A program made the position numbers and the translations under genes. 64,000 nt of DNA from Spironucleus salmonicida (taxonomy: Eukaryota; Fornicata; Diplomonadida; Hexamitidae): NCBI GenBank assembly GCA_000497125.2, contig CM035316.1:70001-134000 (forward strand), in the 5' to 3' direction. The first letter of the stretch is position 1; every line of letters starts with the position of its first letter. Under the pieces are notes generated by a model. It saw only the letters and a list, made by a program, of their open reading frames with translations. It was not told where the DNA came from and did not search any database. Shown piece by piece: positions 1 through 64,000 of the stretch.

Positions 1-667
1 ATAAATTTTATAATCCTTATTTTACCTTGATGGTACTGCTTTAGTTCTAACTTTAAGTAACCAAAGAATTAATGACTTCATCTTTCTCATAAACTTCTTT
101 TTTTAATTCCTAAACAAGAGTCTTCATCTAAAATAAAATTTTCTCATTTTTCTTCTATTGCTCTCTATATAAGGCCAGTTTTTAATTTTTCGGCTTTTTT
201 TAAAGCAAATATTATTTAACTTCTAACGTTTGGGCCTTTTGTATTTCAACCTGATTTTAAGCTGCTAAAATTTCAAAATATCCTTGATTCTTTTAGGTTG
301 ATTATTATATTACCATAGACTATAATAATGCACTGGAATTTAAATTAGATTCGCAAAATTTATTATTTTCATCAGATAATATTTCATTTGAAATTTATAG
401 TGAATCTATTTAATCTTGCATGATCTAAATAATCGCTTCTTTTTCTAAAAAATCAGCTTATAATTAAAAATTAAACTTATTAGGTTAGAAATTAGATGTT
501 GACTTTTCTAGATTTTCTATTTTTCTGATAATTTCAATATGATTTTACAATAAATCGATTTTAACTGACTTCAACTCCTATTTTATAGATGTTAATTATA
601 TGCTGGTAATATTGCTTTTATATAAAGGTCTATATGAGTTTTTTAGATCAGAGACAAAAAGGTTCAT
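1..667 (-). CDS. coiled-coil protein, 3' end beyond window
   Basis: Read with TAA/TAG as Gln, the frame is open from an ATG at 667 to the left edge (about 222 residues) with no TGA, so the C-terminus lies outside. The start MNLFVSDLKNSYRPLYKSN is followed by heptad-like segments rich in Lys, Glu, Gln, Leu and Ile, for example SLQISNEILSDENNKF and KKNEKILFQMKTLVQELKKE. There is no recognisable domain or membrane segment. The next gene's stop is 43 bp upstream. A cytoskeletal coiled coil is plausible from composition only; no family is recognised. Confidence 0.75.
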
Positions 668-710
668 TAATCCAAGCGCAATAATATATATAAATAAATA
701 TACAATATAG

Positions 711-1550
711 TCACTTATTTATAATTAACAATAGTAGTTATAAATCTTTTTTAATATTAGGATTATTAAGAATAATTTGGTCAATTATTTTAGTAAGTTA
801 AATCTGCTTTAACTAGTATTAGTTAAGTAAAACTTAAGTTGACTATAATTGCTAAGTAGTCCTTTGTTATAACTATTATTAACTAATTGCGGATGTAGTA
901 ATAAACTTAATACCTTCATCAACTTATGTTGACTTTTTCTTTAAAGGATATTTATCTTATCTAGTCTTTATATTTGTCATATCTTCTAAATAATACCCAC
1001 CTTATAGACAATAAAATCCATCTGTATTTGTAGGATTTCTGGTCATTTTATATTATTCTATATCTTCCTTAATTACAACAGTAATCTATCGAAAATCTAA
1101 TTCATCCCCTGATAGTTTGGAATCAGCTATCATGTTTTTCGGATTGAACTTATGTCGCTTATTATCTTATTAAATCTATATCCCATTATCTTATGAGGTT
1201 GTTATATGTTAAATGAGCTTAGATAAAGTACTCTTTTCTTCAACTAAAAGAGCTTAGTTTAATTTAAGCTCTTAGCACTCTATTAATAACGATTCATATT
1301 ATTCTTTTAACTAAATAAATGACACTTACTCTTGAAAATTATTTTTAGCTTCATACTATTCTTAGCTTAATATAAGAACAAGTTATTATTAGTACTGTCT
1401 TTAAATGTCAGAAATCGTTAATTATACTTTTTTTCTATAGCTTTGAAACTAATTCAAAAAAGATTACTTCTCTTATTTAAATTTTTGTTATTGCATATGT
1501 AGTAAATTATACAGTAGTTGAATCTGATAACCGGAATCAAACTTTTGCAT
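711..1550 (-). CDS. Gln-rich coiled-coil protein
   Basis: Frame of 279 residues from MQKFDSGYQIQ to INK and an AAG-TGA stop. It is helical and Gln-rich (QQQKFKQEKQSFLNQFQSYR near the start, QQQLQQRTTQQLQSTQVLL near the end). A less repetitive middle contains NPTNTDGFYCLQGGYYLEDM. The chosen ATG follows AAAAAGAAA, the A-rich context usual here, and lies 55 bp after the stop of the upstream gene. The same frame is open back to an ATG at 1691, which would add a hydrophobic Ile/Tyr stretch encoded by a TTA microsatellite and overlap the upstream gene by 86 bp. I judge that extension to be spacer. Function unknown. Confidence 0.7.
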
Positions 1551-1605
1551 TTTCTTTTTATAATAATAAAATATAATAATAATAATAACTAGAAAATAGA
1601 AAATA

Positions 1606-1939: not shown

Positions 1940-2674
1940 TCACTTTTTATTCCCTTCAATAATTTTTAATTTATCGTCGTACTTCAGGCACCTCTTAACT
2001 AATATTTTTAAATCTTCATTTTATAACTAAATCTGTTGCTATAAATGTAAATTTTCTTTTTTCAAATCATTTTCTTTTTGAACGCCTAATCTTCTATCCA
2101 AAACGTTGTTTTCCAGTTTCTCAAGTCTCTGAACAACCAATCCCTCTTAAATTTCACGCTAAGCGCTTGATAACTCACATTTAAGCCCAGAAATGATGTT
2201 GTTAAGCTGCAAAATTGCACTACTTTCGTATTCATCATTTTGAACTTTTACGGCACCAATTACGTCATTTAACGATTTTTCGTGTTACAATTTCAATTCA
2301 AAATTATCTTTTCGCTCCTTTTTCAATAACTGGAGTAAATTTTTACTCACAGTTTCTGTTTTTTCGAGCAGGTTTTTGCAGTTTTGATACTCCAATCTAA
2401 CTTTTTCAGAGGCTTATTAGTCACTCAAAAGCTTCAAAATTTAATCCTGAGAATCGATCAGCTTTTGGAGGTTTTGAGCGCAAAATTCACAGTTTGTTGG
2501 CTTTTTGTTTTGGATTTGATCAAATTGGAATGGCAAAGAGGGTTTTAAAATGCCCGATTTTGCCTTTTCATGATCGTACGACTTCATCACGTAAGGAATA
2601 TAGTACTGCGCGTTCTGCTGGCTGCGTTTATAGTCTATGGCATTCAATTTGATGGTTGCTTCTGCTAATTCCAT
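1940..2674 (-). CDS. coiled-coil protein, 244 aa
   Basis: Starts MELAEATIKLNAIDYKRSQQ and ends DDKLKIIEGNKK-TGA. After an N-terminal part with a CEFC pair (around residue 67) the rest is near-continuous coiled coil (LQLLKKERKDNFELKLQHEK; GLVVQRLEKLENNVLDRRL). The start follows TTTGTAAAA. The first third is less AT-rich than its neighbours and carries no in-frame TAR codon; TAR Gln codons appear further on. No family recognised; a structural or cytoskeletal role is a guess from composition. Confidence 0.8.
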
Positions 2675-9582: not shown

Positions 9583-10146
9583 TCACTTTTCAAAAATATT
9601 ATTTAGCCTTTTTACTGCTATATTTATTTTGTTTATTTAGCATTTTAACTAACCTATTTATTTTTAAACTATTAAATTTTACACAAGCAGAGGATTAAAT
9701 ATCAGTCTTTAAAGTTTCATATTATTAACTATATCATCAATGTCATGTCTTACAAATTTATTTTTAAGTTCTTATAGTCTACGAGTTGTTATTGAAAATT
9801 CTTAGTCTTATCTAAGTGAATAAAAATATTTTGAATATATTCCATTATTATACAAATTACCTATTGGAATTATCTTTGTATTTATAGTTTAGTCATACCT
9901 AAAATAATCTAATATGTAAGATTCTGAATTATCATAAATTATAAGACAGTAATTAATATCTATAAATAACAGCAAAGGATACTAACATGTTTCTTCATTT
10001 TAAGAATTATACTTTTTTCTAAACTAAATTTTCATATAAATCTACTAATCTATATGAATTTCAATATTATCTTTATTAAGTAGTAAATCGTTTTGTTTAA
10101 ATAGCTGTTATTCGTTGAGTATTCTAAAATCTTTTAAATGATTCAT
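9583..10146 (-). CDS. unknown protein, 187 aa
   Basis: MNHLKDFRILNEQQLFKQND to VKRLNNIFEK, ending in AAG-TGA. The first part is mixed alpha/beta (PLLLFIDINYCLIIYDNSES; YILDYFRYDQ). The C-terminal third is a helical, Gln/Lys-rich segment. There is no motif I recognise. It lies 49 bp before the DBF4-type gene and 33 bp after Pus3 on the same strand, so it is one of a minus-strand run without evident functional linkage. Confidence 0.7.
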
Positions 10147-10179: not shown

Positions 10180-11268
10180 TCACTATAGTTACTCTATTTT
10201 TGTATATTTCTTTGAAAGCCCTCTTACAAAGCTTAATACAGTACAACAACTAGGACTACTAATCTAATTATAGAAAAATTATTTAAAGTAGCTAACTTCT
10301 AAGTCATATTCAAATAATTTTATAGATTTGCTTATTTTATCATTTGATTGCCAATTTAAATTTTCAAAAAATGCATCCTCAAAGATCAAAAACTCAGCTG
10401 GAGCTATATTATATTTTGGTCTCTTTGGACATCTCGCTACATCTAATAAGTAATCTATAACATTTATATCTTCATATCCTGCACCGATTAGTAACAAAAT
10501 TGCTACTGTGCATCTAACTTAATGATATACAAATGCCTTTCCTTTAATTACTATGTGAATATCATTTCCATGTTTCTCGACGCTAACATAATCAATTCTT
10601 CTGATAAAATGTTTAATGTCTTATCGTTCAAATGCAAAATTTCTGAAATCTTTTTCCCCAATTAATTTTTATCCACCTTAAATCATTTTTAAAGTATCTA
10701 ATTCACATCCACCCGGAACAATATACCGATATTATCTGCCTATAGCATCAAACCTAGCACTCATTTTTTCATTAACAATTGCCCAGTTCCTAACCCGCAC
10801 CTCTTTAGGCAGTTTTGTATTAATTGCACTTAAATAATCAATTCCACAAATATGTTTTTTAAAACCTTCTAAGTTATCGAAAGTTGCACCTGTTTCACCA
10901 CTACTTCGTATCCATAATGAAAATACTTATCCTGTTGCAGAAACTCCGGCATCTGTTCTTCCACATACAGTATAATTTTTAAAATTAAAAGAGTCTGGAA
11001 CAAGTTAAGCAGAATGTAGTGCATCGCGAAGTATTCGACCAACAGTAAATGATGAATCCGATTCAGTTACTCCAGATAAATTTCTACCGTCATATGAGAC
11101 TTTAAGAAATATTGGTTAGCATGGAATGTTTTCAAAAATAGATTTCGGAGCTTTAAAAATATTATTCCTGACTTCAGACTTTTTCTTATCATCTAAAGCG
11201 TTATATACCTCAAGAAATATACCTGCGAGTTCTATCTTAGATTTTTATAATATTTAGTTTACTTTCAT
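10180..11268 (-). CDS. tRNA pseudouridine synthase (Pus3/TruA family)
   Basis: 362 residues. The family hallmarks are in order: VSYDGRNLSGVTESDSSFTV (residues 58-77), the catalytic loop VCGRTDAGVSATGQV with the nucleophile at D106, the RQYRYIVPGG strand, FRNFAF, and the KGKAFVYHQVRCTVAILLLI motif. The enlarged N-terminal helix and the extra segment within the YDG-G loop point to the eukaryotic Pus3/Deg1 branch, which makes pseudouridine 38/39 in the tRNA anticodon arm. The start follows TTTTAAACAA. The frame is open upstream to an ATG at 11454, but that stretch overlaps the divergent neighbour's start region and is hydrophobic nonsense, so 11268 is preferred. Confidence 0.9.
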
Positions 11269-11878: not shown

Positions 11879-13471
11879 TCACTTCAAAAAATTTTCTGTA
11901 ACATCTTCGCCTAAGAATATAGAAATTGTTATGCCATTTTTCACAATCTTAGGAGAGTCTTGGACTTCAGCTACTAATTCAACACAAGTTTAATTTTCTT
12001 CCTTAGGCCATAAAAATAACCATTCTGAATCCTTAGACGCTTAAATTCTCTCATGAAAGCTAACACCAGATACTAAATAACTTTTAACACTGAGTTTACC
12101 TAACATGAATTCTTTTAGTTCTTTATCCTTAAGAAATTTGTCCACTTATGGAGGAAGAACAATTTTTATTTCACAATTTAACTAAATAAGTAATACACCA
12201 AACGAAAGAATTGAATAAACATCATCAAGTGTAGTAGCTGGCCTCTAATTTACTGCCAAGTCGCTGATAATAATTTTTCTAGAAATTAATAAGCGTTATC
12301 TAGCATTTCTACGACAAACTTCAGTTAATGAATAATTTTCAAAATATTATTCTATATATTGCGGAAGCTGCGAATCAATTTAAATAATTTCTTCTTATTT
12401 TGGTTCAAATAAATAATTTTTTGCTTGTTTTAAATGGGAGCCTTACTTAATATAACTAGCTGAGATATCTATAAATTCACCAGAAATAATTGGAATACCA
12501 CATGTTAATGCTAAAAGAAAACGAGAAGTTGATCTAAGTCTATTAGTAAATAAGAAATTTATCTTCAAAGGATTCAAGTTATCCTATAATTATGAATACT
12601 GATTTAATATATGGCTTTATTATTCAGATATAGAAGTAGACCATACATATTAATCTGTTACAAGTATATCAGATAGTAATTCATTATAACTGAAATTAGA
12701 ATTCTCTAAAGGCTTTGGAATGATTATTTTAGGATTTTATTTTCTAAATTCTTCTATATCTAAGGCATCAGAAAACGATTCCTACTCTGCAAAAGAAACT
12801 GATTTCGAACAATTTTATTCATCTAAAATAGATGAAGGTTCAATACCATCGGAAACTAACATATTTTAAATTACAGAATCTTCTGAATTTTGTGTTTCTT
12901 TCACTAAATTTCCTTCACCATCACCATCAAATTTTTTGATTTTTTAAACTTTAACCTTCTTATCTTTAATTTATTACTTTTTTGCAGATTCTTTTGCTAC
13001 ATTAGCTTTCTTTTATGACTTTAAATTTATTTCAACTTTTTAAGAAGGTTCATTTATAGTTGTTGCCACTAATGTAACACTAAGATCTTATGTATTGTCA
13101 TCTTATGTAATATTTTAATACAATAACCTAATCTTATATATTATTTCTTTTGCTTTGATAATTATTATTAAGAATTTTCCTTACATATTTTCAAAAGTTT
13201 TTGATGACTATTGAAGTTAAAATATTTCCCCATCATGTTCAACAATACATCCATTTCTGGAAGTATCTGAGATAATAATGTTATTCCCTTCTAATTTAAT
13301 ATTTGCATGAGACGATGAGATTGATTGAGATTCTAAATAGATTAAAGAAGTATTATCTACAATCTTATGACTAAGAGTCGTATCTTTCGGTCTTCTCCCT
13401 ATTTTTATCTCAGGTTTAAGGCTATCTACCGTGTCAACTACAATATCATTTGAATATATTTTGCACTGCAT
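11879..13471 (-). CDS. FHA-domain protein with probable BRCT (nibrin-like)
   Basis: 530 residues. An N-terminal FHA domain covers about residues 20-85: EIKIGRRPKD (phosphopeptide loop), SISSSHANI (S-x-x-H), and ISDTSRNGCIVE (the D-x-S-x-N-G loop). After a Lys- and Ser-rich linker, residues near 310-340 read STSRFLLALTCGIPIISGEF, which fits the LA-x-G-x-P-I-V/I-S strand/helix of a BRCT domain. FHA followed by BRCT is the NBS1/nibrin layout, the Mre11-Rad50 partner in double-strand-break sensing. No C-terminal Mre11- or ATM-binding motif was identified, so nibrin is an inference. Ends in AAG-TGA. Confidence 0.7.
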
Positions 13472-19987: not shown

Positions 19988-22852
19988 ATGAAAAATCCTG
20001 AGTCTTATCTAAAGTTGCATCCTGAGATCAAAACGTTAATTACAATCTTTACATAAGAATGTATATATTTTTAACCTCAATCAATACAAGAATTTGGCAA
20101 GTAATTTTTTAAAAATCAAGAAATATAAAGTTTTGTAGCTTAAAATTTTGGATTTTAAACTTCAGATGCCCATGTTTCTTCTTAAATGAATTTGTAATTA
20201 AAATAAACACTTGAATCATAACGTTTAAAAACAAAAAATATTGAAGCTAGTCATATGAATGAAATGATTGAAGAATTTGCAAATGTAAGTAGTAATAGTG
20301 TAAAAACTGATAGTTTTAGAAATACAAGAGTTAGTGCTTAAATTTAGATATAGCCTATTAGATGTAATTCAGTGAAAAATGTCCCTAATTAGGAAAAAAT
20401 TACTGGAAATTCTAGCTAATAGATTATGAAAAACATTTATAAACATTCTTAAAATAGAAATCCGCAATGTCAAAGTGAAATTGCATAGAATATAATTCAA
20501 TTTTAAGACGATATTTAGATTGACTAAGTAAATACTGACGAATACAATCATAACTCACTAGAGTATGGTAATAACCAAAATTAACAATATAATGACATTA
20601 ATACATAGGTATATGACGAATAACATTCGAATAACTAAAAGATAAAAGAATTAAATAATACAGTTATAGACGAAGATGAGCACCCTTAAGTGGATATCCA
20701 TGAATCCTTCAGCAATGATTAGGTTTTACCTGAAGATATTGCTCCAATTGTATCAATTACACAACAAATGAGAATGACTGATGCTAAAGTAAAAATGAAT
20801 TAATTGTCAGAATTCGCGCATAAAGCTTTCTCATTTGCACGATTGAAAGATTTAGGAAATGTATTTTTGATCTAAAGCCCTCTAAAAGACTAATTTATGA
20901 ATTTCACATAGCTTGCAAGTATGGCAACATTTTCTACAGCATTTCCTAGAGCTTTACGAATTGCACCAGGGAATAATTTGGATTATCGACAATATAATGA
21001 ATTCACTTTTTTGTTTTCGCCACATATTCATGGTGTAAGTTATTTGGAATTATTAAGTGGTGTTGAGAAATTATAAAGTTATATTTCCACTATTTTTGTT
21101 TGTACTAATATATAAGAATCGTTAAATTTGAATACTAGCGTTGAAATGCGTTACTTTGAAGGATTGGGAAAGAATATTCGTTATTTATCATCTAAGTATA
21201 ATATGTTCAATAAACATTTTTATAAATATTTACCTGTTTTAGTTAAAGGAAATTATAAATCATAATAAGTTGAGGATTTTTGTGTTATTTTTGTAAGTTT
21301 TGTTCCACCAGTTTATTATGAGAGAGAAATAATTTTATCAGATAATTTATAAGAAATGGAAGGAGATGAAGAATAATTACGTAAAGTAAATAAATTATAA
21401 ATCTTTGAGGAAAAGCAATCTGTAGATATATTACCACTCAACTGTAAATTTTATGAAAGCATATTTATCGAAACATAAGAGATGCTTAGAGAGTTGGGAA
21501 TTAAAATGGACAAGAATATTAAATTTGTATATTTAACTAGTTAAAGGTTAACTAATTTTGATTAAAAATCTTATAGAATATAAAAAGAATTTTTTGATAT
21601 GAATATGAAATATGATAATCCTAATACTGAATTTTACTTTGATAATATTATAAATTCGATGGATAATCGAGAATCTTAAAATTACGAAGAGAGCAAAATT
21701 TAATAATTATAATTACATAATATAAGGAATTTTAAAAACTAAATGATATAGATGATTAGTTTCAAAAATATGGTTATTGCTGATGAATCATTGCTTACAA
21801 ATTCCATTAATTAAATTGATGTTAAAGATGTTAAATATATGGAACCATTAATGATTTTTATAGACTAATGTTTAAAATTAAGTAGTGGGTGTGGTATGGT
21901 TTAAGATTAAATTTAAATAACATCATTTAAGCTATTTAATTCACATTTTATACGTAGATTAAATTTAAATATTATACACGACGCTTCATTAGTATATATT
22001 ACAAATGTATTGAAAAATTAAATAATATCTAGATATAAATCATAGCTTGTACCTTTAAATAGAATAGTAAACAAAATATCTTAATTATGTTTTTGTTTTT
22101 CCCATAAAACATTAGTTGGACATGGTCCATTATTCGACTGTGTGGATATTTAGCATGGATTAGATTGCAAAGTTAAATGTTAATGTACTAGAAAGGATAT
22201 TAATAGTTCTATTATTTATGTAGATTAAATCTCAGAAGAAAATATAAAATAATTTTTACCTGGATGCGCTGATGAAAAACTTGGAAAATTATTTATGTGC
22301 TAAATTCCTCTTCGAGTATTATTAAAGTCATTCATTTATCATTATACGAATAATGTATTTGGAAGTATTTTTAACCATACAGGGCCGTCTTTTATATATT
22401 ATACTGGTATTGGTTTAAATTATAACTCGGAATAACCAGAAAAATCATATCTATTTGACTAATATGCTTATAAAGCAGATATTTTACGTTAGTTTCAATA
22501 TCAAAATATAGATGGAAACCTTTTGTCAAATATATTTTTACATAAAGAGAAGTACTCAACTCCCTCGAATAAATCTGCAGAATTAGCTCGATTAACTACT
22601 GAATAACTTGATGAACATATATTCCTTATATTAGATAATGGGTGCTTCGAACCTTGTGGGATAGTATAAACAATTAAAAGGTATACTACTGTCGTCTTTG
22701 ATCGGCTGGGGCATCTTAGCGAAGTATTAAAAGAACAAATATCAGATGGTGTTAGTGCTTAAATAGACCTAGACTAGTGTTTCCCTGCATGCCTAGTTAG
22801 CGACTTTAATAGTGTTTAGCATTTACTTTTACAATAAAGATTAGATAAGTGA
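19988..22852 (+). CDS. large unknown protein, 954 aa
   Basis: MKNPESYLKLHPEIKTLITI to HLLLQQRLDK, ending in AAG-TGA. The first 260 residues are low-complexity, rich in Asn, Gln, Glu and Asp. From about residue 265 it becomes globular, with alternating hydrophobic strands and helices (SEFAHKAFSFARLKDLGNVF; YNEFTFLFSPHIHGVSYLEL; DFCVIFVSFVPPVYYEREI). A Cys-rich patch near residue 720 (LCFCFSHK ... DCVDIQHGLDCKVKCQCT) could bind metal. The C-terminus holds ILDNGCFEPCGIVQTIKRYT. I cannot place it in a family; DENN/longin-like folds were considered without support. Confidence 0.7.
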
Positions 22853-22890: not shown

Positions 22891-23520
22891 ATGACTTCAT
22901 CTTCAGAACTAGAAATTAATTTGACTCACTTAAAGGATCTATTTACAAAAATCACAGATAATTATTAGAAATATACAACAATTGATTAATTTAACCATAC
23001 ACAATCTTGGTTTTACTCACCAGAGCTTTCAATCCCACCTTCAGAGAATGAGAAATCATAAAACTTCAGAACTAGCTTCGATCTTTAAAATCGAATAGAT
23101 GCCGCAGAAACTAAATTTTCTCAGAACACTAACGGGTCATAAAAAGAAGTTATTGAAAGAGAGCTCAGCTCAATTAGACGTGACGTAGATCCGTAATAGG
23201 CAGAATAAGAGCTAGTTATTTAAAAAGAATGGGAAGAACTGGTGAAAATACGCACATAGCAATACTAAGATTTCATACAGATTTGCAACATAACAAGAAT
23301 TCCTCTAGAAGGCGCTGAAACGGCACAAACACAACAAGGTGTCAGAAAATATCGATAGGACGTTGTGGATTTCGTTAAAAAGCTTGAATTCAACAAAATT
23401 GATAATAACGTAGGAAAGCTCTAAATTACCGAATCGCCGGTCCCTCCTTTCATTAATAAGACTTTTAGACCACAGATACATGCAATTGAGCCAATCGACG
23501 TGGCGGGTTACTTCAAGTGA
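22891..23520 (+). CDS. unknown helical protein, 209 aa
   Basis: MTSSSELEINLTHLKDLFTK to IEPIDVAGYFK, ending AAG-TGA. Mostly helical with a charged central region (KEVIERELSSIRRDVDPQQA; QKEWEELVKIRTQQYQDFIQ) and a Pro-containing tail. Start after CAACAAA. No recognised domain. Convergent with the Sec20-like gene, with 10 bp between stops. Confidence 0.75.
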
Positions 23521-30600: not shown

Positions 30601-30887
30601 AAACTCTAGGTGTTGACTAATGTCCTAAATATACAGAAGAACTGTATAGACAACTTGAAGCATAATGTATTGCCTTATAAAGTGATAGAGCCTTATTAAG
30701 AAATAGCCTGTTATTGAACTAAAACAATAGTAATTAAAAAAGCTTGCTTAGCAGCTCAATCTATTCTTCAAATGAAAAACCACGCAAAAGTATTGGAATA
30801 ATTATCATGGGAGTTATTTTTGGAGTCATTCTTATTGTTATGATGGTAATGATTTTCCTCGAAACAAATGAAATGTATTACATTTGA
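27642..30887 (+). CDS. C-terminally membrane-anchored protein with CGH/CPHC region, 1081 aa
   Basis: MTSINSPAIKKVQNAPLQQI to LETNEMYYI. The N-terminal 400 residues look like beta-propeller strands (KFLILGLDDGTINVYSV near 400). Residues 420-600 are Gln/Arg/Ser-rich and coiled coil. Around 690-745, LLECGHVIKL and EKCPHCKSYI form a possible zinc site, followed by a compact beta region (VVILPKFLMFSNNG; LDSFGRWILNGEAI). Residues 830-1040 are coiled coil. A membrane helix at about 1051-1073 (IGIIIMGVIFGVILIVMMVM) leaves a short tail, implying an anchored cytosolic protein. RING- or UCH-like activity was considered; too few ligands are visible to claim it. Confidence 0.75.
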
Positions 30888-31100
30888 GTGACTTGCGCTT
30901 ATAATATAACTTATTCTCTTAAATATTATTTTTAAATTATTTCATAATCAAATATTCTATAAGTTATATTATTTAATATTCTTTTCTGTGGTATATAAAT
31001 TTATTTTAATATAAATTAGGCTGAATATATAGTTTTTTCAATTAATATTTATCGATTTAAATAGTATAAAATTAATCTAGAATATTCCTCTTCCGCACAA
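30888..31100. other. spacer, 213 bp
   Basis: AT-rich with no frame. An AGTGA motif occurs immediately after the upstream stop (TGAGTGA, 30885-30891). It holds the start region of the SHIPPO gene; nothing else seen. Confidence 0.5.
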
Positions 31101-31766: not shown

Positions 31767-31778
31767 CAAATTAAGCTT

Positions 31779-35766: not shown

Positions 35767-38232
35767 TCACTTTTTAATTACTTTTTCTAGATCTGGCTTC
35801 AACTCCTTCGCACGCTGTTCAATCTACTCTATACCGTATGACCGTAACGCCGAAAATGAAGACAACCTTCCGCTTTCCTTTGGTGCGAATGTTTGCGCTG
35901 TAAAAGTTGTAGGAACTTTTGGGCGGTAAAACTGTTTTTCAAATGCCAATTTCTCCTTCTACAGATCAATATTTTTATTGTAAATAATACGAACTGACGC
36001 TTATGATTGCGGCCGAGGAGGTAGTGATTTTCTATATACAAGGCCGTTTAATGCTTACTACTGTTACTCTGCTGTTCGCTTTGGTTTAATTTCCTATTTT
36101 ACAGTGTTACTGGCTATAACTGATTAATTTACACGTTAGAATTAGCTTTATTTCACTTAAGTTACCTCACGTGGCCTCAGAATTGCTGTGCTTTTAACTA
36201 TGCTATCTTTTTTGGTTTTTGCAAGTGGCTTTTAATTCTTTACCGATATAATTCCTAATTATTTTTTCATTAATTATGAGAATAACTTGGAATCAACTGT
36301 TTTCTTCTTTGATTTAAATTGTTTAAAAACATCTATATCCTCATCGGAGTCATCTGAATCAGAAAACCCTGGCTCCTGAATATTTAAACTATCAATATCA
36401 TAAATTTCGTCTTTATAACCTTCAACAAAATAAACTAAGTGTTCAGCAAGGTTTTCACCCCCCTCTCTTAGAATATTTTGTGTGAGAATTCTCTGTGTTT
36501 TATAATTTTAATTTGGGCTTACATCCTAAGTTTTGATCTGTTATACATCAAAATCATCTTGAAAACTAGAATTAGAATCTGAACATACATTATTTATGAT
36601 ATCACATTAAATATTAGATTTTAAAGCTCTATGAAATGAACACTCTATACAAAATGAATACGGTATTAAGTATTTTTTTTATGTTACTACTCTACCTGTA
36701 TTTTCTTTTCCCTTACTCACACCAAAATTACAGTCACTATAATTAAAAATAGGGCTCTTCTTCATTAAACCAGCAAAATATCCACAAACAGAAGTGGAAT
36801 ATGCGAACATATTGTTCTTTTTAAAATGACCATGAATATCAATATACAACTAAATTATACCACCTTAATCTATTATTTCTTATAGCACCTAATGAACGGC
36901 AAAAATACATGGTGTCATTGCCTATGTTGAACTGTTCCATTTTCTATTAAGGTCAAAGCCTGCATAATTACATCTATAATTACCTAGAATAACACCGTCT
37001 GGGTTGAGCATTGGAATAATTTTAATAATATAATTTTACCTTATTAAAATAGCTTTGGAAGATTGAGATAAAATATAATTTAAAAACCCTTCCATGATAT
37101 AAGATGATTAAGTTTCACCAGGATGAATTCTAGCGGTTACAAAAATAATTTTTCGTTATTTTATTGGGACTGAATCTTCAGACTCTTTTGCAGTTATGGT
37201 TAATAAATCTATATCATTTTGTAGAATTGATTTTTAAATAATTTTATGCATGAAAAGATAATTTGGTTGCTATACTGAATAATTTTATATAATTGAGTTA
37301 ATTTTTAGTTATTATTACATATAATTATAGGGAAAATGCTATGCTACTATGTATTTTCCTTAATTTTTTGGGGTAAACTAAAAGAACAATGAAGAATACT
37401 TATACATTAGATTTGTCTTATCCTCTATATATTAACTATTTGGGCCGTATGTTATATTCTACCCAACAGTCTCCCATCCTTTTCCATCAGAAAATAAAAT
37501 TTGCATACCATTATTATAACTAGATCTTCGCTTTACAAAATTAGCAATTATAAAGCTATATTATACCCCGGGCATAACATTATCCATTTAAAAATAAAAC
37601 CACTAACTATGACTTGTACTATTGCTATCACTTTATATAAGAAGATAATAAACTTAATCCCAAGGATAAAACTCAGTAATACTTCGATTTACACCGTCCA
37701 ATGTTACTGAATCTGTCTTTGTCTCAACAACATAATTCTCATGATCTGGTAATAATTTTTGTGCTATATTTGTTGAGCAGATCTTGACTCTTGATGCAGA
37801 AAATAGATTTCCACTCTCAAATCTTGATTCAAACTGTAAATTTGTTGAGTGACGGTTATAATTCCCAGTATCATTCATGTATACAATAAATTATTATTTT
37901 GTGTTAAGAATCGTTTTAATAAGAGTAGATGGTTAGAAAAATTAGCATGAGCACTAACATATACAAGTAGGCTTTGACTAAAAGTTAGATTTCATTTGTA
38001 CCCCTTCTGTATGAGGAACATATATATTAAAATTATTTGACGTCTTAATATCTTTCTACTATGGACCTAAACCATAGTATAGTGGCGGAGGTTCTGGCAT
38101 CTTAATTTTACTTTTATGCATAGCAACTACCTCATCAAATTTATTAATATTGGCCAGTGTAACTTATCGAAGAAGTTCAGAGCCGTCTATAGAATCGGTA
38201 CCTTCTGATATAGATGTTGAAAATCCATACAT
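35767..38232 (-). CDS. cytosolic carboxypeptidase (M14, CCP/AGBL family)
   Basis: 821 residues. The CCP N-domain ([26 protein letters not shown]) precedes the zinc peptidase: [20 protein letters not shown] (zinc ligands H370 and E373), [30 protein letters not shown] (third ligand H467) and CIECSFHR (general-base E530). These are the M14D/Nna1 signatures. CCPs remove glutamate from tubulin tails, fitting a flagellated cell. The C-terminal 250 residues are a charged, low-complexity extension ([12 protein letters not shown]) and a basic coil. Complete and intron-free; the strongest large enzyme call in the window. Ends AAG-TGA. Confidence 0.93.
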
Positions 38233-39407: not shown

Positions 39408-39983
39408 ATGTCATTCACATCTTCAGAAAGTTCTTCTCCATTTTCATCTAAAAAAGACTACTCAACAATTGAAAATGACCTTTCTTCATTGTCTAAGAAA
39501 GTATCATCAATAAATTCTTCATTTTTGACAGACTCTACGTTGCCACTTAATGTATCAATTACTTAATCTAGCCGGACATAGCCTGAAAAATATCAGTATA
39601 AGCAAATGCAATAAGAAATGCGAAATAAGTTCTAAAATTAAGGATAATTAAGCAATTCTGAGTAAATATAACATTTCGCTGTCCCGTAATATTATTAATA
39701 AAAATATGCAACCCCATAATCAATAGCCTCTCAGCAACAAAATGAACATAATTACTAAAGACAGTAACCATAACAATAATTACGTTAGCAGTAAACACAA
39801 CCGCCTAATTAGTTTTCTCAATAATAATATACGCCTGAATTTGAGAGAATTAGAATATTAATGAATTAACTAAGAAAAGCAAATTAATAAGGTCTTATCG
39901 AGGCAGGAATTTTTAATGTCCAGTATAAAGAGCTGAAATAGTTATACTATGAAGCTTTATAGGACGTTATTGGCCAACAGTGA
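39408..39983 (+). CDS. Gln-rich unknown protein, 191 aa
   Basis: MSFTSSESSSPFSSKKDYST to EALQDVIGQQ. Ser-rich N-terminus, then a Gln-rich middle (YQRQQPQQQLRQQQTQPPNQ) and a short helical C-terminus (FERIRILMNQLRKANQQGLI; NVQYKELKQLYYEALQ). The start follows CTCAAA and gives a normal 46-bp divergent spacer. An in-frame ATG at 39363 would abut the opposite gene's start. No family recognised; disordered. Confidence 0.65.
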
Positions 39984-40480: not shown

Positions 40481-41860
40481 TCACTTTTTCGTTAAATCAA
40501 TATTCCATAGTGTTTTCCATTTACCAATAGCAAATTTTCTAATCTCCGTTTATTTCCTTTTTCCGCACTTAAATCCCTCCCCGTACGTCTTTATATCCTT
40601 ATATAAATAATACCAACAGCCTGGACAATAAAATTTTAAATCATCGCCAATTTAATCTGCTTTCAATCCTAAACAATTAGGGTGGAACCATCCATCACTA
40701 GCAAACATACACTTTTCACCATTTTCACATTATACCATCGTCTCATCGTCCGTATTATTCTTACAATAACAGTATACATCATGCTGTGGAATTTCTTATA
40801 GATCTGGTTACTTAGCCTCACTAGGTTCTAAAGTACCAAAAACTTCATCCTCAATATGTGCCTATTCTGCAACATTTGGTGTACTGATAGTTGAGCTTAA
40901 CATTGACAGGTCGCTCTCTTCGTCATAGTTCTCTTAGAAGCATGGGAATGTAGCATATTGTAAGAATTCTCCAATAAATGCTTAAATTTCATTAGTTTTG
41001 TGTTCTTTTTCTAAAATTTCTTGTGCCCTTTTTGCAGCTATTTCTAACTGTTATTGCATTTCGTTTAGGGCTTGACGATGATCGCAATTTTATAAATTTT
41101 TGGGCTTAAAGGGTGGAAACCTGTTGAGTTCGTCTTTGAGTTCTGATGTTATTTCTGCGAATGCAGACAGAACTGTTTCAACTTGATCGTAGTTAAATTC
41201 TTAGCTAGGTTATGATGTTAAAATTGCATTTCGCTAATCTTTGAACTTTTAAAAATTTATGCCCTCAACGAGAAGCGTCATTGTACCTGCTGGAGCAGAT
41301 TAAGATAAAAGTTAAGCAACTTAACTAGCGTATGTTGTATCTACTGGTAGTACCGAACGATTCCCATGAACCCCACTGCATGATGCATATCGAGCATTAA
41401 GAAGTAGATCTGAGCGTTCAAAAGGCAACTCGTTCGAGTCGTCTTCTCCGACTTAAAATAATTGTGAGGAAACCATTCTATTAACTGGTTATTATTCTAG
41501 AAGAAGTCTCATCCCTAGGGCGTTTCTTTACCACCGTAATTCTTAAAGGGCAGCAAATGCATGATTTATTTTCTCTTATTATGTTGAAAGTAAAAAAGAA
41601 AGTCTTTGCTTAATTAAGGTAGGCTGCAATTGTGTATTCTATTTCTATGCTTATTTAATCATTCCGTCAATTTCATTTTCAAGGCGTTTTGTTGTGTTTG
41701 AAAGATGATTAATATGATGAAAATGTTTGAGTGTATAAGGGAATATTAATGCTGAATTTTTACCAAATATTTCAGTAAACGAATTATATTAAATAAGTGA
41801 TAGACTATTTTAAATATATTTTAAAGTCGATACCTTTTGTTGAGGTTAACGACGTGACAT
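40481..41860 (-). CDS. ING-type PHD-finger protein, 459 aa
   Basis: N-terminal helical region with coiled-coil potential (LKHFHHINHLSNTTKRLENE), a variable centre, a helical EMQQQLEIAAKRAQEILEKE segment, an acidic stretch, then a PHD finger at about 361-413: VYCYCKNNTDDETMVQCENG, KCMFASDGWFHPNCLGL, FYCPGCWYY. The C-Y-C, M-V-x-C-E-N, G-W-F-H-x-x-C-x-G-L and Y-C-P-x-C elements match the ING-family finger, which reads H3K4 methylation in acetyltransferase complexes. A 50-residue basic tail follows. The start follows TAAGT. The general PHD call is firm; ING orthology is inferred. Confidence 0.85.
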
Positions 41861-43822: not shown

Positions 43823-44344
43823 ATGGCTGATCTTTTTATTATTGGGTAAATTATAAAAGGAGTATAATTTACTGAATAAAAATTAAGTTGTTAATGGTCT
43901 ATTTCCACAGGAATTGGATGGTCACATTGCAATGGTGATCGAGAAGGATAATCTAGCTTTGATTAACCAGCTGATAAATACTATGATGGATTTATATTCT
44001 CTCTTCCAATGGAAGTTCATTTTCAAACAATAACTATGTCATAATGGCCTGAAATTCAGCTTTAATTATTCACATAGGATAAGAAGAAATAAAAATAATT
44101 AATTGCACAAGGATCTTGTTTTGTACCATTTTAAAAAGGCAACCATGAACTAAAAGTCCAATGTTGGAAACATTGTAAAGATAAAGCATATATTGAAGGA
44201 TCTTTAGGTACTCCATAAGATGGGTCAATTACTGGAGGCCCTGCTCCAAATTAAATTACTGAACCAAGTGGTTATGTATTGATAGAGTTAAATGTTTGCA
44301 CCAATGGATTTGCTGAGCGCGGTATTGGTGCATCAAATGAGTGA
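43823..44344 (+). CDS. B9 domain protein, B9D2-like
   Basis: 173 residues, the normal length of B9D2. The entire protein is one B9 (C2-like) domain: MADLFIIGQIIKGVQF, KLSCQWSISTGIGWSHCNGD, GQSSFDQ, FIFSLPMEVHFQTITMSQWP, EIQLQLFTQD, FVPFQKGNHELKVQCWKH, and the closing SGYVLIELNVCTNGFAERGI. B9D1, B9D2 and MKS1 form the ciliary transition-zone gate at the base of cilia. TAR encodes about 14 of 18 Gln, in a protein whose ends match the family exactly. Start after ATTATCAA; stop GAG-TGA followed by AGTGA. Confidence 0.93.
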
Positions 44345-44551: not shown

Positions 44552-45322
44552 ATGGAGAATGATTATAATAATGAGCATAATTGGGAGAATCATGATAATG
44601 ATGAAAACTACGAGCCCTAATAACATGATTAAAATAGCTAAGAAAGTGTACATGATAGTTCTTCATCATATTCTGAGGAAAACTCGCAAAATGATTCAAC
44701 AAGATACTAATGTGAGTATTGTGGCCGAGGTTTTTCTAGAAGCAATCATTACTAGAAACATTTGGATCGCCATAAGTAAATGAATTCAGCATACACTTCA
44801 ACTTCGTAGCCTCCAAATGTTATTCATTCTATACCTGATCCAAGATATTCTACCTAGCATGAATAAACTTAATAAAAATAGATAACAATTCCTAACTAGT
44901 CATTTTCTTGTAACCAATGTAGATAGTGTTTCTAAACTCCTGATTAATTAATGTAGCATGTCAGATACTAACATTCCAATATTTATACTTGTCCTATTTG
45001 CTAGAAACAATTTAAGCAGAAATATCATCTGTAATCACATATGGCACAGCACACTGGATAAAAGAACTTTGCTTGCCCAATTTGTGAAAAAGGATTTGCA
45101 AGAAAAGATACTCTAGAAGTTCATCTGAGAGTTCATTCTGATGATCGTCATTTTGAATGTGAGGTGTGTGGAAGTAAATTTAAGTAAAAGGGCCACCTTA
45201 CTAGACATATGAATGTACACCTTGAAAGAATTAATGTTTAATGTGAGTTATGTGGGAAATAATTTTTTAGAATGGACTAATATAATAATCATATGAAGAG
45301 ATAACATCTTAATTAAGAGTGA
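44552..45322 (+). CDS. C2H2 zinc-finger protein, six fingers
   Basis: 256 residues. An acidic Asn/Asp/Glu-rich N-terminus (50 residues) precedes six C2H2 fingers at about 53, 120, 146, 174, 203 and 230: CEYCGRGFSRSNHYQKHLDR-H, CNQCRQCFQTPDQLMQHVRY-QH, CPICQKQFKQKYHLQSHMAQ-H, CPICEKGFARKDTLEVHLRV-H, CEVCGSKFKQKGHLTRHMNV-H, CELCGKQFFRMDQYNNHMKR-QH. Fingers 3 to 6 are linked in TFIIIA/Kruppel style. It probably binds DNA, or 5S RNA if TFIIIA-like (TFIIIA has nine fingers), so a general transcription-factor call is safer. Confidence 0.9.
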
Positions 45323-52034: not shown

Positions 52035-55000
52035 ATGTTTATGTTTACCTAATTTTAAACTGGTCTTACATTTCTGGTATATAGCCATGTTCCATATTGC
52101 TCAATGGAGATGTATGCATTTTCGTTGGTATAATCTATATTAATATTCTTTTAATATTATAGTTACTTCTAAAGTTATAGTATTGGAAGTATTCAGATGC
52201 TGCTATCAGGAATACTAATTATTAAAGATCATTTAATATTTAAAAATATTAATCGTATAAATATTGTCGCTGACACTGATTAGTAAACGGATTCTATGAA
52301 AGATTTATTTTCAAGCCTTTTAAATAAGTCTATGTGTTCAAGAATTTTTAAAACAATTTAACATAACTAGGTACCTATATCATAAACTTGCCCTAATTCA
52401 GTCCTAATATATATAAGTTTTATTAAAAACTAATAATCTTAGTTAATTTATGCTGCCAAAGCTCATGAATTTACTGTTATTTTAGACATGTTGGTCGATG
52501 CGGTTGGCGTACTTAAAATTAAATCAAATTTTGATGAGTATGTTATTATAACAGATTAAGATATTGCTTATGGGGGTATGTTAGATAGTTAAAATAATAA
52601 TATATCCGTTTTTAATTAAGCCTTAATATTTTCATAATTCGTTTAGGAAGCATCAAAAGCATTAGATTTTGACATTAAATCAATAATTACTGTAGGTGAA
52701 ATTAGATTAACTGTTAATGGGTTTTAGAAAAATTATATATGGTCTGATTTGATTGGTCCAACGTATTCATTAGCGAAACATATTACCAGTAATCTAAATA
52801 AAGGTATTTATCTTGATAATACTTCAGTTACAATTTATTGCTAGTAATAATCCAAATCAAGAAATGATGCTTAAAAATTTAATTAATATTATACTTAAGA
52901 CTAATCTGATTTTGCTATAATGATGAGCTTTATACGAAAATTTTAGCAAGTTCCAAAGTTATTTTTAGCTACAATTATTAAATATGATGATAGATAATTT
53001 GAAGTGTTTAAAATAGACTCAACATTGGAGAGTAAAACACTAATATTAAAAGTTTTAGAATTAGTTTACTCACAAAAAACTTAATAATCTGTATTTACTG
53101 ATAGTTAATAAGATTTTGATTAAAATATAAAGGAGCTTAAGATGTTAATAGACTAAATTGATTATGGACGCAAATCATCATCTGGATTTGGACAATCATC
53201 ATATTCTATAGATAATTCAGATTGTAATAGTGTTAAGTTAGCATTTGATCTTTAATCATCAGAAGAATCTGACTCATAATATAAAGATATATTACCATCT
53301 TTTGTTAAAAATCCATCGACCAAAGATATTATTATGAGGGAACCAATTTTAGAAACTGTAGAAGAAGATGTAATAGATACATCCATGCTAGCATACCTGG
53401 CTAAATATAGAAAATATATGCAGTCTTTATCTGGTAGAAGAAAGGCATCGCTTTAACCTTTAAAAAATGACTTGGAAGAATCTGAAAATGAAGATTTTGG
53501 AGTATAATTTGTTATATAAAGTTCAGTCAGCTCAATGAACTGTTTATAATTGGAAGAAGAAAGTAAAAATTGTAGTTTTTACTAGTCTCTAAAGAAATAT
53601 GTATATAAAGTTTACTAGTAAATATGTTAAAAATTTAATTGGCTTATGTAAATTATACATTAATCATAATAAATGATGAATATCCAATCATAAATTTCAG
53701 GTATAGTAGAATAAAGATCTTCAGAAAGTAAATTTTTTTTACAAGCAATTACTAGTTAGTATAATATTTTATTTTTAAATAAGGTTCCAGCTTCTATAGT
53801 GTTTACTTCAATATGTATATATTTGTATAAACAATCTGTAGACGATTTTATCATTATTTTAGGGCATTATTTTAATTTTAAGTAAGGATTTTATTATATA
53901 CTAGTAGTTTAAGTTTTTACAATAATAGGAGATGCACTATTATCATTTAAAATTCTACAGCAAAAGGTAACAGAAAAGAAAGGAAAATAATACGATGATA
54001 AATAATTTTTGTTTAAGTCTAGCGTATAAGAAGATTGCATTGAAACAATAGATTATCTCACTATTTATAACTATCTTTGGCGAATATTATAATTAATTAC
54101 GCATATTACATACCATACAATCTATTTTGTGTTCATGTTATCTACCTAATAAAGCATTAAATCCTCATAAAAAGCTATATCAGAATATGTTATGCTTTAG
54201 CTTATGTTATTTATCCATGACTAATGCAATTCCTTATTGTCTCCGTATCATTAATCTGTATTTGATATATCAATAATTTTTGTTTTCACTTCTCTTATAG
54301 ATATTATTTTTTTAATATTAGGAAGTCAATTCAATTTTTATCTTTCTATAATGCCTTTAGTATCCAAATTACCTCATTTAATATATAATACTTACATAAC
54401 TAAATAATTTTATAAATATGCTGAAAATAAAACTAAGCTACTAGAACGATCGAAAAGAAATGCACGTAAATTATAATCTTTTTCTTTACCTATTACTACT
54501 AGCACACTTCTATCTCACTAGTAAGAGCTATTATAATTATAAGATGAATTATTTTAAGATTAATATATTAAAAAATATAATATCCTTACCGTATATTCAT
54601 AGATTCTAGGTGAAAAATAACGATATATTTAGAAGAAACGGGAAACCCTCTTAAAACTTATTAATTAAGCATCACAAGATGACTATTAGTAAGATCTTAT
54701 ATAATTGTAAATTACATAAATATATCTTGATTATTAAAAGTTGAGCTTCTAAGATATTTCATCTTAGCGTGTTGTTTTACATTTTAATAATTGTATTATA
54801 TTGTCTTTACGATTAGAAAATATTGAATTGTTATAAGAATTTAGTGACTAAACAACATTTATTGATGAATTCTATGAAATAGTTAATGACTCAATACAAG
54901 ATGTATCAACTGCACTTATTTTAAAAATTGAGGGATCAATTATATAAATTCTTTTATTTTAAGAATCGTAAGCAGACTTTGAATAATATAACTCATTATA

Positions 55001-55415
55001 AGTTGGTGTTGCTTTGGGCCTTGGTATATTGAAAAAATGTAGAGAATTTATTTCTGAATTTTGTGAAGATATCGTTAATCCACCAAATATTTATTCTACT
55101 GGTGGTATATCAATTGGTGAAGGTTATGGCATGGTATTAGGTGACAAAATATTTAGGTTTGACATGGTAGGAGAAGTTTAGGAATAAAGTTTATTAAATC
55201 TTTAAAATTCAATTTAAAATGCAATAACGATGGATAGACTTCTATGGAAGATATATCTAAAAGAAAATGACAGATTTCTCATTGAAATAAGAACTCTTAT
55301 TGAGTTATAAAATCTTAAATCTGGTAATAAGACAGAAAATGAAGTAAATTATAATGTTTGGTTGTAAACTAAAATAGATGTATTTGATTATATTTATGTT
55401 ACTGGGCTAAAGTGA
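52035..55415 (+). CDS. transmembrane protein with two divergent class III cyclase-like domains
   Basis: 1126 residues from the chosen ATG; an in-frame ATG at 51990 would add 15. The N-terminus has a hydrophobic region (LTFLVYSHVPYCSMEMYAFS). A first cyclase-like block at about 150-265 reads LDMLVDAVGVLKIKSNFDEY, ITVGEIRLTVNG and DLIGPTYSLAKHI, echoing the KxxGD and G-x-V-G-x-R-x-D-Y-x-V-I-G-x-V-N-x-A-x-R motifs. Residues 555-790 carry several membrane spans. A second block at about 908-1065 (FIDEFYEIVNDSIQDVSTAL; GGISIGEGYGMVLGDKIFRF; DMVGEV) is similar. Catalytic metal Asp are not obvious. Ends AAG-TGA. Confidence 0.55.
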
Positions 55416-55418
55416 AAT

Positions 55419-55919
55419 TCATTCAACCATACTTTCATATAAAATTTATGATTTTTTCTTTTATATATGGGGTTTTTAAATATCCTAAACCCATTTGACC
55501 AAAGGGTTAGAATAAAATCTATCAGAAGCATGCAACCTTGAAGCTATCTTATTAAATGTATTATTATTAACATAAATATTCCGTCTATCTGGTTTAAGGG
55601 CAATACTATTTGATCTATTAAAAATATAACCTGGTTTATTAACATCTAGTTATAAATGATAGTCAGATGGGCCTGGTGAGATTGAATTCTTAACATCAAT
55701 CTTAGATTTTATTTTAACTATTTTTTAAGGGTTGTTGATGTATCGAAATGCCTATGAGATATCAGATAACTAGTTGTTCGTTTTTTCTTATTTTTTACAT
55801 AAAGTTTGCTTATTAGGGTATAATGAATTATTCATAAGCTATTAATTTGAATTAAATAATACTTTAACTTCTTGTCTAGGCTACAATGCTTAAATAAATC
55901 GTTTTTATGATTCACTCAT
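55419..55919 (-). CDS. SHIPPO-like protein with SPGPSDY motif, 166 aa
   Basis: MSESQKRFIQALQPRQEVKV to LYESMVE. A single SPGPSDYHLQ motif at about residue 89 resembles the PGPG-x-Y SHIPPO repeat; it is followed by IFNRSNSIALKPDRRN, like the R-H element of such repeats. Basic and probably microtubule-associated, by analogy only. Its TGA is just 3 bp from the stop of the convergent cyclase-like gene. Confidence 0.6.
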
Positions 55920-60171: not shown

Positions 60172-60928
60172 TTATTTTCATTATTACTTGATATAACATA
60201 TTAATAAAATCTATAATTATTAAAATTATTATCTATAAAACTAAAGTATATATAGTAATGTTACTAAATATAATATAGTGATACTCAGAATTTTAATTAC
60301 TATTAAAATTTACAGTGTTTAATTTAGTTAAGTTTCATTGTTAGGAAAATTAACAATATATTTTACTCTACAGAATAAAACTGGGGATTTTACTCTTCAA
60401 TTACACATAATTTTATTTTATATTCAGTTAATGCTTATATATTGATATACTGGTTGTAAATAACCTAAAGTTAATATAACAGTGTAAAAAGTTATGATAC
60501 TTACTTAATAACTTAGATAACAATGTGATTAGTTTATTTATGTTTTATTATTAATTTTATAAAAATAAATATTTCATACCAATCATATGGCCGAAAATAC
60601 TATTAATTATATAGCTCTATTATGTATTTATTACATTATACTATCTATACTGTTATTATCTTTAAAGTACAATAGTTATTAGATAGAGAGTTACATAATA
60701 TTTTGGTCAGTATAATATATTATTAACTTTATGTATACCTTATATTTATGTGAGTTTATTATTGTAAAGTAATTATTGAGTTAAAAAATAATAATATATC
60801 AAAAAGTAATCAGTTATCGTAGTAAGAATCTAAATTTAAAGATGTTCAAATTTATTAGAACCAAATTAAGATAAATACAATTATGATATTTATATATATT
60901 TATTTGAATGATTTTTTAAATAATTTAA
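60172..60928. other. AT-rich gene desert, 0.76 kb
   Basis: No protein-like frame, no tRNA fold. Extremely A/T-rich with irregular TAA/TTA runs. It separates two plus-strand genes. Content unknown, possibly the promoter of the Q/N-rich gene or an origin. Confidence 0.55.
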
Positions 60929-63900
60929 ATGTCAAAATTACCATAAGTTTAATAACTAGATTAATCATTGGAAATTTAAATACCAATGAAAGAATTTATT
61001 CCGCCATAGTTAAAATTTTAACAAGTATAAGAATAAATAATTTTATCACCTAAAATAGTACAAAGTTTTGATCCTTTACCTAGAATGCGATTGCCTATTA
61101 ATTAACAATTTGTATTGCCTGATTTACCACCTATTATTTAATCATAGTTATAATTTGATCCATCATAAATAGCATAGGTTCCATAAATGTAACTATAGAT
61201 ACCAATTAATTAGTATTAGAATATTAACTTTGATAATCATCATGCAAATTAATAAAATTAGAATGACAAAGACTCTAACTAGCATAAAAATACTAGTCTG
61301 CCAGATCCCATTTATCCTTCTAAGAGAATTATTAATATTGTGAATTATGATCCAATGATATAAGTCGAATAGAAAGAATAGTAGATTTAGAGCGACTAAC
61401 AAACAGTTTTGCCGAAGTCTTAAAAAAAGATTTAGTTAAAGTCTGAAATTATTTAAAATATAGATTCTAACATAGAGGACGAAAATAGTCTTAATTATAT
61501 GATTATGGATGCATAGAAGTAAGATTTTGAGTAGTTAGGATATAAAGAAAATTTTATCGATTCCATTAATATTTATAAATAGCCTTTAATATCATAAAAT
61601 ATGGTTAGTGTACCCTAAATTAATAGTAACTCTTTAATTTTGCCAAACGAACGTAACGCTATTATTTAAAAAAAACCAGAAGAAAAAATAAATAATCCTA
61701 AAAGTTTCTCACCTAGTAGAAATATCTATTCAAAGAGAAATGATAAGTTATAACTTGATGATAATATTATAGTTGATGTATAAAAATCATCAAATGATAA
61801 TTCTATGTCGTAAAACTTATATAGAGAACTTCCTCTAAATATTATGCAACATGCTGCTTAGAGTTATGAACACGATAATAATATTTCTAATTATCAACAA
61901 TAAATCTAAAAGAATTAAGTAAATGATGCATAAATTTTAATAGTTAATTAAGAGATAAAAAGTTTAGGTAATTAATATGTTTAATAAAATTTAATTTAAT
62001 AGGCTAAGTAACAATATCCGTAAGAACAAATTAATGAAACTAGTACGAATAAATATTTTTTATAAAATGAGTAACTTAAATATTAAGAATAGGTCATCCA
62101 CCCCAAAAAATCAGTTGAAGTTTAATAAATTTTTAAATAATAATATCCTTGTGAATCTGATCATAATATTATCAATTAAAAATTTATGGAAAATATGCCA
62201 ATTATGTAATAATAAATTTAATTAAATGATTATAATCCATAATTTTCATCAACTTAATTAAGTATTAATTAGATACCTCATAATTTTTAATAAATAGGAG
62301 ATACATAAGTATAAAATTAGTTGTTATAATAGTAGCAGTAATCAGAATCATCAATAACTTAGTCTTTATAATATAGTGAATAATAATAAACTAAACAATA
62401 ATTAAGTTAACAATAGTAGTAAATATTGTAATAAAATTAGTAAAAGTAACAATATTATCATTAATAATCGTAGTAGTAACAACCTTCATAGTAATTATAG
62501 TAATAATTAATATAACAATAATAAATTGCCCAAGTATATAGAAATTAATAAGATTAGCAGAATCAATAATTTTCAAATAATTAGTAATAAGATGATGGTG
62601 TTATTATAGATGATAATTACTAGTTATTATACCCACTAAATCAATAGTAAGATATAAATTAATTGTAAGAAGCTTAATTTTTAAACTTGTAGGCAGTTAA
62701 TGTATATTAACTTAAGAATGATGAGAATATAATTAATACTGTTCTTAGTACGAAAAAACAGTATAAAGATGATAAAGTTTAAATAAGTTCACCATCCCTA
62801 ACTAATAAGCATGACTAATTATAATCATCAGTATAAAATTTAATTGCTGAATATATTTTTAAAGATTCTTCCAATTAATAAATTAATGACTTATCAATAA
62901 AATAAAATAAATAGTATTAAATAGAAGAGTAATATTCTGTAAGCAATGTTACAAAGGAAGTACGATAGAACTAGTAGGAAATTGATACTTTTAAAATGTA
63001 TCAAGGGCAACCTTACGCAAATCAAGATTCAAATTACTTGACTTAGTCTCCATCTTATAAGCATCTAGAAGCAGATGTCTAAAATTATAGTAAGTTAGAA
63101 AAGAAATTATTATCTATTGATGATAATACTACTTAAATGAATAATTTTAAATAGGATATTCAACATTAGTCTATCTAATTGTAACATTAAAATGCATAAA
63201 TAGTAAAAGATAATGAGTTAAAATGCTATAATTATATTAACTTGAATAAAATTATTTAATAATCAGATTGTATACATAATAATATAACGTCCACTATTTC
63301 TAGACAAGTAGATAAAGCAACAAAGTATGAAAATGGTATCCCTAATTTTTAAATCAGTAATTTAGTTTAAAGAGTTTAGAATAATTAAGATTAAAAATAA
63401 GAATATTAAAGCTTTGATATTGTTAATGCAGATATGAAGCTATAATATTAAAAAGATAGAGATGTAGAATAATCTAGTTATCTTTCAGCAAATTAAATAG
63501 ATATAGTAAAAAATACTAATTAGTATCAACCAAATGATACGATTTCTTTCAATTATGACGAGTTTATAATAATTAAGGATGGTAAAATAAATTCTGAGCA
63601 TAATAAAAATGATTAGCAGCTTCCAACATTTGATAAATAAAATTAAAATTAGAAATTAGAAAATTAACAGTAATTTATATCTACAGAGATTACCTAATAA
63701 TAAGAGCACTAAAGTTAATATTTAGATTAGTTATCCTCGTCTGATATTAATGTTAAGAACGATGATCCTAAGTAAAATCTTAAAAATGATAAATATTTTA
63801 TTTAAAAAGAAAATTATGAAATCTAGGATACAATAAGTAAGAAGAAGTCATTTGCTGTCCAGTATGGAGATAATTAAGCTTTGAAAATACATTGTGATTT

Positions 63901-64000
63901 TAATTAATAGTAAGATATAGTTCACAGTCCTACGATTAAAAAGAACTTAAAAGTCTAGTAGACTAATTCTTAGGTTAAAAATGTATAGTAATAGAAAAAT
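60929..64000 (+). CDS. giant Gln/Asn-rich protein, 3' end beyond window
   Basis: Open from ATG at 60929 to the window edge, at least 1023 residues, with no TGA in frame. It starts MSKLPQVQQLDQSLEIQIPM and stays low complexity: Gln and Asn dominate, with Ser, Lys, Asp and Ile. The densest part (62300-62530) is almost pure Gln/Asn encoded by TAA, TAG, CAA and AAT. Under the standard code it would be riddled with stops, so it is open only because UAR is Gln. The composition is prion-like or disordered; a scaffold of RNP granules is one possibility. No domain was found. Confidence 0.75.

Follow-up and report, generated by a model that had tools for sequence, protein, structure and literature searches.

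The 64,000-nucleotide window analysed here, positions 70001-134000 of contig C1 in an assembly of Spironucleus salmonicida, reads as a set of genes that stop at TGA and often carry AG immediately before the stop, so that the last sense codon and the stop codon spell AGTGA. This element very probably doubles as a polyadenylation (poly(A)) signal. The window has a G+C content of 27.4%. It contains no open reading frame (ORF) of at least 150 amino acids under the standard code but many under table 6, in which UAA and UAG encode glutamine and UGA is the sole stop, and 6 of 20 proteins tested in the table-6 reading had a Pfam match above cut-off. UGA is the only stop in the window, with UAA and UAG as sense codons.

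The assembly holds 14,471,397 bases in 37 contigs. Contigs C1 to C9 (1.92 to 0.62 Mb) sum to 14,014,076 bases, or 96.8% of it, and C3, the sole contig with a 100-base telomere pattern, carries TAGG arrays at its right end (from 1,813,364 of 1,815,816). The first 8000 bases of C1 and all of C2 300001-310000 are N, which may be gaps in the assembly. In the passages we draw on, the 2022 assembly of S. salmonicida is given as about 14.7 Mbp in 42 scaffolds with 284 kb of gaps, with nine chromosomes making up 96.5% of the genome, (TAGG)n telomeres and a telomere-complete chromosome 1 (PMC9509377). Our contig numbers need not correspond to the published chromosome numbers, C1 opening with N. The original prediction, made from the letters of the window, had pointed to a diplomonad, and the genome does fit S. 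salmonicida, the species for which an AGTGA signal is in print.

Genes were called with a 3-periodic Markov score that took TGA as the only stop and left the stop and the five sense codons before it unscored, which kept the stop context from influencing the choice of ORFs; starts were picked by the best suffix score. Plain codon-usage scoring and a first periodic Markov caller missed genes or misplaced starts and were dropped. Once N stretches were removed, the window and 182 kb from elsewhere made up 246 kb and gave 113 genes, 34 in the window and 79 outside, and 50 kb fetched later gave 20 more, for a total of 133 (34 in the window and 99 outside) from about 2% of the genome. One locus consisting entirely of N (L015) and 8000 N of another (L009) were left out of the counts. 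Tubulin loci L001-L008 supplied stop contexts only and were uncounted; L008 overlaps the counted L010. The models are those of our own caller rather than the published annotation, and some short ones may be wrong. A second list for the window comprises 49 long, largely non-overlapping TGA-stop ORFs chosen mechanically. Frames without a stop before the end of the window went unscored and no gene was called at 60908-64000, where an open table-6 frame, with 187 of 1031 codons read otherwise than by table 11, lies in the 4-kb bin that has the highest A+T content in the window.

Thirteen of the 34 scored genes in the window end in NAG-TGA. On the minus strand AAG precedes the stop at AGTGA 711..715 (ORF 711-1550), 1940..1944 (ORF 1940-2776), 9583..9587 (ORF 9583-10146), 11879..11883 (an FHA-domain gene, 11879-13471, convergent with 11292-11867 across a gap of 11 nucleotides (nt)), 35767..35771 (an M14 carboxypeptidase-like gene, 35767-38232) and 40481..40485 (ORF 40481-41860, with a weak PHD-finger match below its cut-off), while a pseudouridine synthase-like gene (10180-11268) ends in TAG, here a glutamine codon, and TGA (AGTGA 10180..10184). 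Plus-strand sites with AAG lie at 22848..22852 (ORF 19988-22852), 23516..23520 (ORF 22891-23520, 10 nt from a convergent Sec20-like gene at 23531-24016) and 55411..55415 (ORF 51747-55415, 3 nt from the convergent 55419-55919). The same strand has CAG-TGA at 39979..39983 (ORF 39363-39983, 13 nt from the convergent 39997-40449) and GAG-TGA at 44340..44344 (ORF 43823-44344) and 45318..45322 (ORF 45041-45322, with a weak coding score of 6.2).

These thirteen stops (9 AAG, 2 GAG, 1 TAG and 1 CAG, with AAA before one other stop) compare with 2.2 expected from internal codon use (binomial p = 8e-8). The mechanical list gave 15 NAG codons at 49 stops (10 AAG, 2 TAG, 2 CAG and 1 GAG) and again one AAA. 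The original prediction had counted 20 NAG and two AAA codons at 44 stops; the direction and strength of the bias stand, but the exact numbers do not, as both lists have fewer. It was correct that AAA is the commoner lysine codon, with 925 AAA and 309 AAG inside the 34 genes. As a check it had proposed comparing the codon before the stop with genome-wide codon use, and beyond the window the enrichment holds. The first sample from outside the window had 26 NAG-TGA ends in 79 genes (6.1 expected) and the loci fetched later had 6 in 20 (2.05 expected, p = 0.013), giving 32 in all 99 genes outside. Over the 133 genes there were 45 (33.8%) against 9.99 expected from the codon use of the same genes (p ~2e-18), and with paralogues removed, one gene being kept per BLAST cluster, 44 of 128 against 9.6. 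AG preceded 78 of 2893 TGAs lying out of frame within these genes (2.7%) and 224 of 4093 intergenic TGAs (5.5%). The NAG-TGA bias is real and genome-wide. As the last codon AAG outnumbers AAA by 23 to 6, but at internal positions AAA is the more frequent, with an AAG/AAA ratio of 1153/2710 (p = 6e-8), a contrast between synonyms that rules out a mere preference for a C-terminal lysine. In the first 113 genes position -2 was A in 68% and T in 26%, and position -1 was G in 47%.

The sequence after the stop also shows a pattern. G makes up 6.2% of bases at +9 to +15 and 11.5% at +20 to +45 (133 genes, p = 1.5e-6). This G-poor zone is strongest in the genes with AG before the stop (3.5% G), and it is present in the 92 genes that have no called gene within 45 nt downstream (6.7% against 10.7%, p = 0.002). 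It coincides with the start of the poly(A) tails in published expressed sequence tags (ESTs), which begin on average 13.2 bases after the stop (n = 134), with 122 of the 134 at 9-14, and the U-rich region reported near the tail in the same work partly anticipates it (PMC1805757, 2007).

In 4 of the 88 genes without AG before the stop, an AGTGA starts 2-6 nt after the first stop base, with about 0.5 expected from the intergenic rate, and three of the four are off frame. One of the four genes is 27642-30887 on the plus strand, where the last base of the TGA stop and the following GTGA form AGTGA at 30887..30891, 4 nt downstream of the usual place and exactly where the original prediction had noted it. 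Among the first 113 genes, the 74 that lack AG have AGTGA further downstream than 6 nt only at offsets 35 and 44, not above chance.

Convergent genes lie very close together. Of 25 convergent neighbours, 13 are separated by 0-13 nt, whereas none of the 84 tandem or divergent neighbours falls in that range (six of the 84 overlap); among convergent pairs with strong coding scores on both sides the figure is 7 of 11. Gaps of this size leave no room for an ordinary 3' untranslated region (UTR) without overlap, and the limit of packing roughly matches the length of published 3' UTRs. Other close convergent pairs, with 0-13 nt from stop to stop, occur in loci L018, L021, L022, L025, L030 and L031. 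The sole close pair supported by Pfam on both sides is in the window, where a SHIPPO-repeat gene (31101-31766, plus strand) and a PA28 C-terminal-domain gene (31779-32504, minus strand) are separated by 12 nt (31767..31778), with no AG before either stop. Of 18 further members of close pairs tested, 4 had a Pfam match above cut-off and 14 had none.

A signal read in the RNA might also leave a mark inside genes, and we compared internal 5-mers and 6-mers with expectations from synonymous shuffling of the 133 genes, ranking all 1024 5-mers. Away from the stop, AGTGA was seen 78 times with 114.5 expected (z -4.0, rank 7 of 1024), and its antisense, TCACT, 99 times with 110.5 expected (z -1.1). 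In the window AGTGA was seen 25 times against 40.7 expected and TCACT 33 times against 27.6. AGTAA was not depleted (374 seen, 361.4 expected), either in the window (142 against 141.6) or outside (232 against 219.3), nor was AGTAAA (150 against 139.3). In Giardia AGUAAA serves as signal and is depleted in ORFs; no such depletion is seen here. In the genes sampled, the lack of any avoidance of AGTAA is firmly established; avoidance of AGTGA as an RNA signal is less secure. Tolerance of AGTAA together with depletion of AGTGA suggests that the Giardia-type AGTAAA signal is not read in this genome. The original prediction had taken the Giardia AGTRAA signal as its model, and the principle of a signal built from AG and the stop survives, while AGTRAA in unchanged form does not.

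The reading that best accounts for these observations, and that we hold with considerable confidence, is that the last sense codon and the sole stop TGA form the preferred core of a cleavage and polyadenylation signal, AGUGA. The AGUGA so formed would mark the 3' end of the mRNA, and the transcript would be cut about 9-14 nt past the stop, in a stretch poor in G and rich in U. Cleavage factors presumably bind AGUGA itself. Selection on this RNA signal would favour codons ending in AG before the stop, above all AAG over its synonym AAA. The poly(A) positions in this model are taken from published work; what is observed here is the codon bias, in the window and elsewhere, together with the zone low in G, the close spacing of convergent genes and the modest depletion of AGTGA within genes. 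The fusion of a poly(A) signal with the stop that the original prediction proposed is supported, and it has been published for S. salmonicida (PMC3916229).

Several results weigh against this reading. AG is missing before the stop in 88 of the 133 genes, and the eight tubulin-family loci end in ATG-TGA or TAC-TGA, which shows that AG is not essential. Taken separately, the 34 genes of the window have no significant G-poor zone (p = 0.17). The internal depletion of AGTGA is modest, with six 5-mers more depleted by z, and in the 99 genes outside the window AGTGA (53 seen, 72.5 expected, z -2.7, rank 35 of 1024) and TCACT (66 seen, 83.8 expected, z -2.5) are both low, so that the strand specificity of the depletion comes solely from the window. 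A G-richer downstream context that might spare internal AGTGAs was not significant (p = 0.25). The 2007 EST study, in the part cited, describes expressed genes as having, TGA apart, no strong consensus (PMC1805757). AG before the stop is a preference and not a rule, and AG-TGA is a strong form of a looser signal.

The bias could instead reflect termination context, with AG before UGA making the sole stop more efficient, or less prone to readthrough, and having no role in forming the 3' end. In other eukaryotes the efficiency of a stop depends in part on the last codon, and the leakiest stop is generally UGA. Where -2 is T, G is likewise over-represented at -1, with 12 NTG and 7 NTA before stops and 2309 and 4868 inside genes (p = 0.006), and the absence of strand specificity outside the window weakens the argument for an RNA signal there. 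However, an effect on termination leaves unexplained the depletion of AGTGA in the two non-stop frames (53 against 70.2 expected in one and 22 against 35.4 in the other, over 113 genes), the G-poor zone, the off-frame AGTGAs just past the stop, the short convergent gaps and the published tail positions (PMC1805757). We consider this explanation unlikely.

Much less probable still is that the excess stems from lysine-rich C-termini, from local base composition or from erroneous gene models. The CRMP-1 proteins of S. salmonicida are reported to have a KKXKK-type motif near the C-terminus (PMC3916229), but the AAG/AAA contrast refutes a protein effect for lysine codons, and GAG/GAA is shifted too (11/10 before stops, 914/2160 inside genes, p = 0.03), while TAG/TAA (6/5, p = 0.09) and CAG/CAA (3/2, p = 1.0) are not significant. 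Random ORFs are common when there is one stop codon, and ORFs not accepted by the coding score show a weaker excess (17 of 99, 5.6 expected), but the excess persists under a stricter gene filter (28 of 85, 6.3 expected), and the coding score takes no account of the stop or of the five sense codons preceding it. It is scarcely credible that genes avoid an A before TGA, which would create an out-of-frame ATG, instead of favouring G: AAA is indeed unenriched before stops despite the favoured A at -2 (6 seen, 5.84 expected), but codons of the form NAA (AAA, GAA, TAA and CAA) are not depleted (23 seen, 17.8 expected) and at -1 the strongest depletion is that of T (18 against 40.3 expected), not that of A (32 against 40.1).

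Comparable signals are known from other systems. Trichomonas vaginalis uses the standard code. Its UAAA poly(A) signal overlaps the UAA stop (cited in PMC3916229), sharing the principle of overlap but differing in sequence. In Giardia lamblia the AGURAA signal shares with the present case AG before the stop, short 3' UTRs and overlap of stop and signal, the last in about 15% of genes; the same source, which cites the Spironucleus case, reports AGUAAA as strongly and AGUGAA as modestly depleted in ORFs (PMC9014877). Giardia prefers AGUAAA, whereas here AGTAA and AGTAAA are undepleted and UAA encodes glutamine. With AGTGA as the depleted form, the pattern inside genes is the opposite of that in Giardia. 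In G. muris the overlap is reported for most genes (PMC7641422). S. barkhanus, with a tail about 13 bp after the stop and UGA proposed as both stop and poly(A) signal, shares the 3' UTRs of about 13 nt and A at -2 before UGA (134 ESTs), but in the passages cited conservation outside UGA is weak, with no AG consensus like that found here (PMC2874811). The Hexamita inflata paper has one passage on stop codons and makes no mention of polyadenylation, TGA or UTR.

In S. salmonicida itself an AGTGA poly(A) signal overlapping the stop was described in 2014 (PMC3916229), and the code, the preferences at -2 and -1 and the AGTGA found here agree with the published accounts (PMC3916229, PMC1805757), as does the genome layout; the signal is no different. 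The prediction of such a signal is right but already known. Our analysis adds the counts against codon use, the comparison of AGTGA with AGTAA inside genes, the G-poor zone and the measurement of convergent gaps. We found no depletion test of AGTGA inside Spironucleus genes in the published passages covered, most subscription papers lying outside them.

UGA may have a further role. A selenoprotein W-like gene of the Rdx family (L029:1486-1713, minus strand) contains a CxxU-like motif whose in-frame UGA follows UCC and not AG. UGA would then be stop, probable core of the poly(A) signal and probable selenocysteine codon, as has been proposed (PMC2874811). The UCC before this UGA is a single case and proves nothing.

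The window has other features. ORF 42768-43772, with the start chosen here, begins shortly after a tRNA-Trp (CCA) gene at 42666-42740. A 483-bp (161-codon) unit is repeated five times in tandem at 16540-18771, spaced at exactly 483, inside the 1226-amino-acid ORF 15612-19292; four copies are identical and the fifth is 89% identical over the 300 nt compared. A protein search with a RING-finger gene of the window gave no match at E 0.001 or better among 7993 candidates scored.

Under-use of AGTGA and tolerance of AGTAA inside genes are what the code-change idea put forward in 2014 predicts, namely that two of the stops are released if only one can double as a poly(A) signal (PMC3916229). It is possible, though doubtful, that the 3'-processing machinery reads AGUGA and has lost the reading of AGUAA(A), and that this narrowing confined genes to UGA and freed UAA and UAG for glutamine; we put it no higher because the strand control is mixed, about 2% of the genome is covered and no other lineage is compared. 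The narrowing, if true, would put the 2014 proposal, in which overlap of signal and stop drove the code change, to a direct test at the sequence level. If it held over all annotated genes, the signal would have been reduced to AGUGA in a lineage in which UAA and UAG encode glutamine. One codon that ends translation and helps to mark the site at which the mRNA is cut offers a mechanism for genetic-code change.

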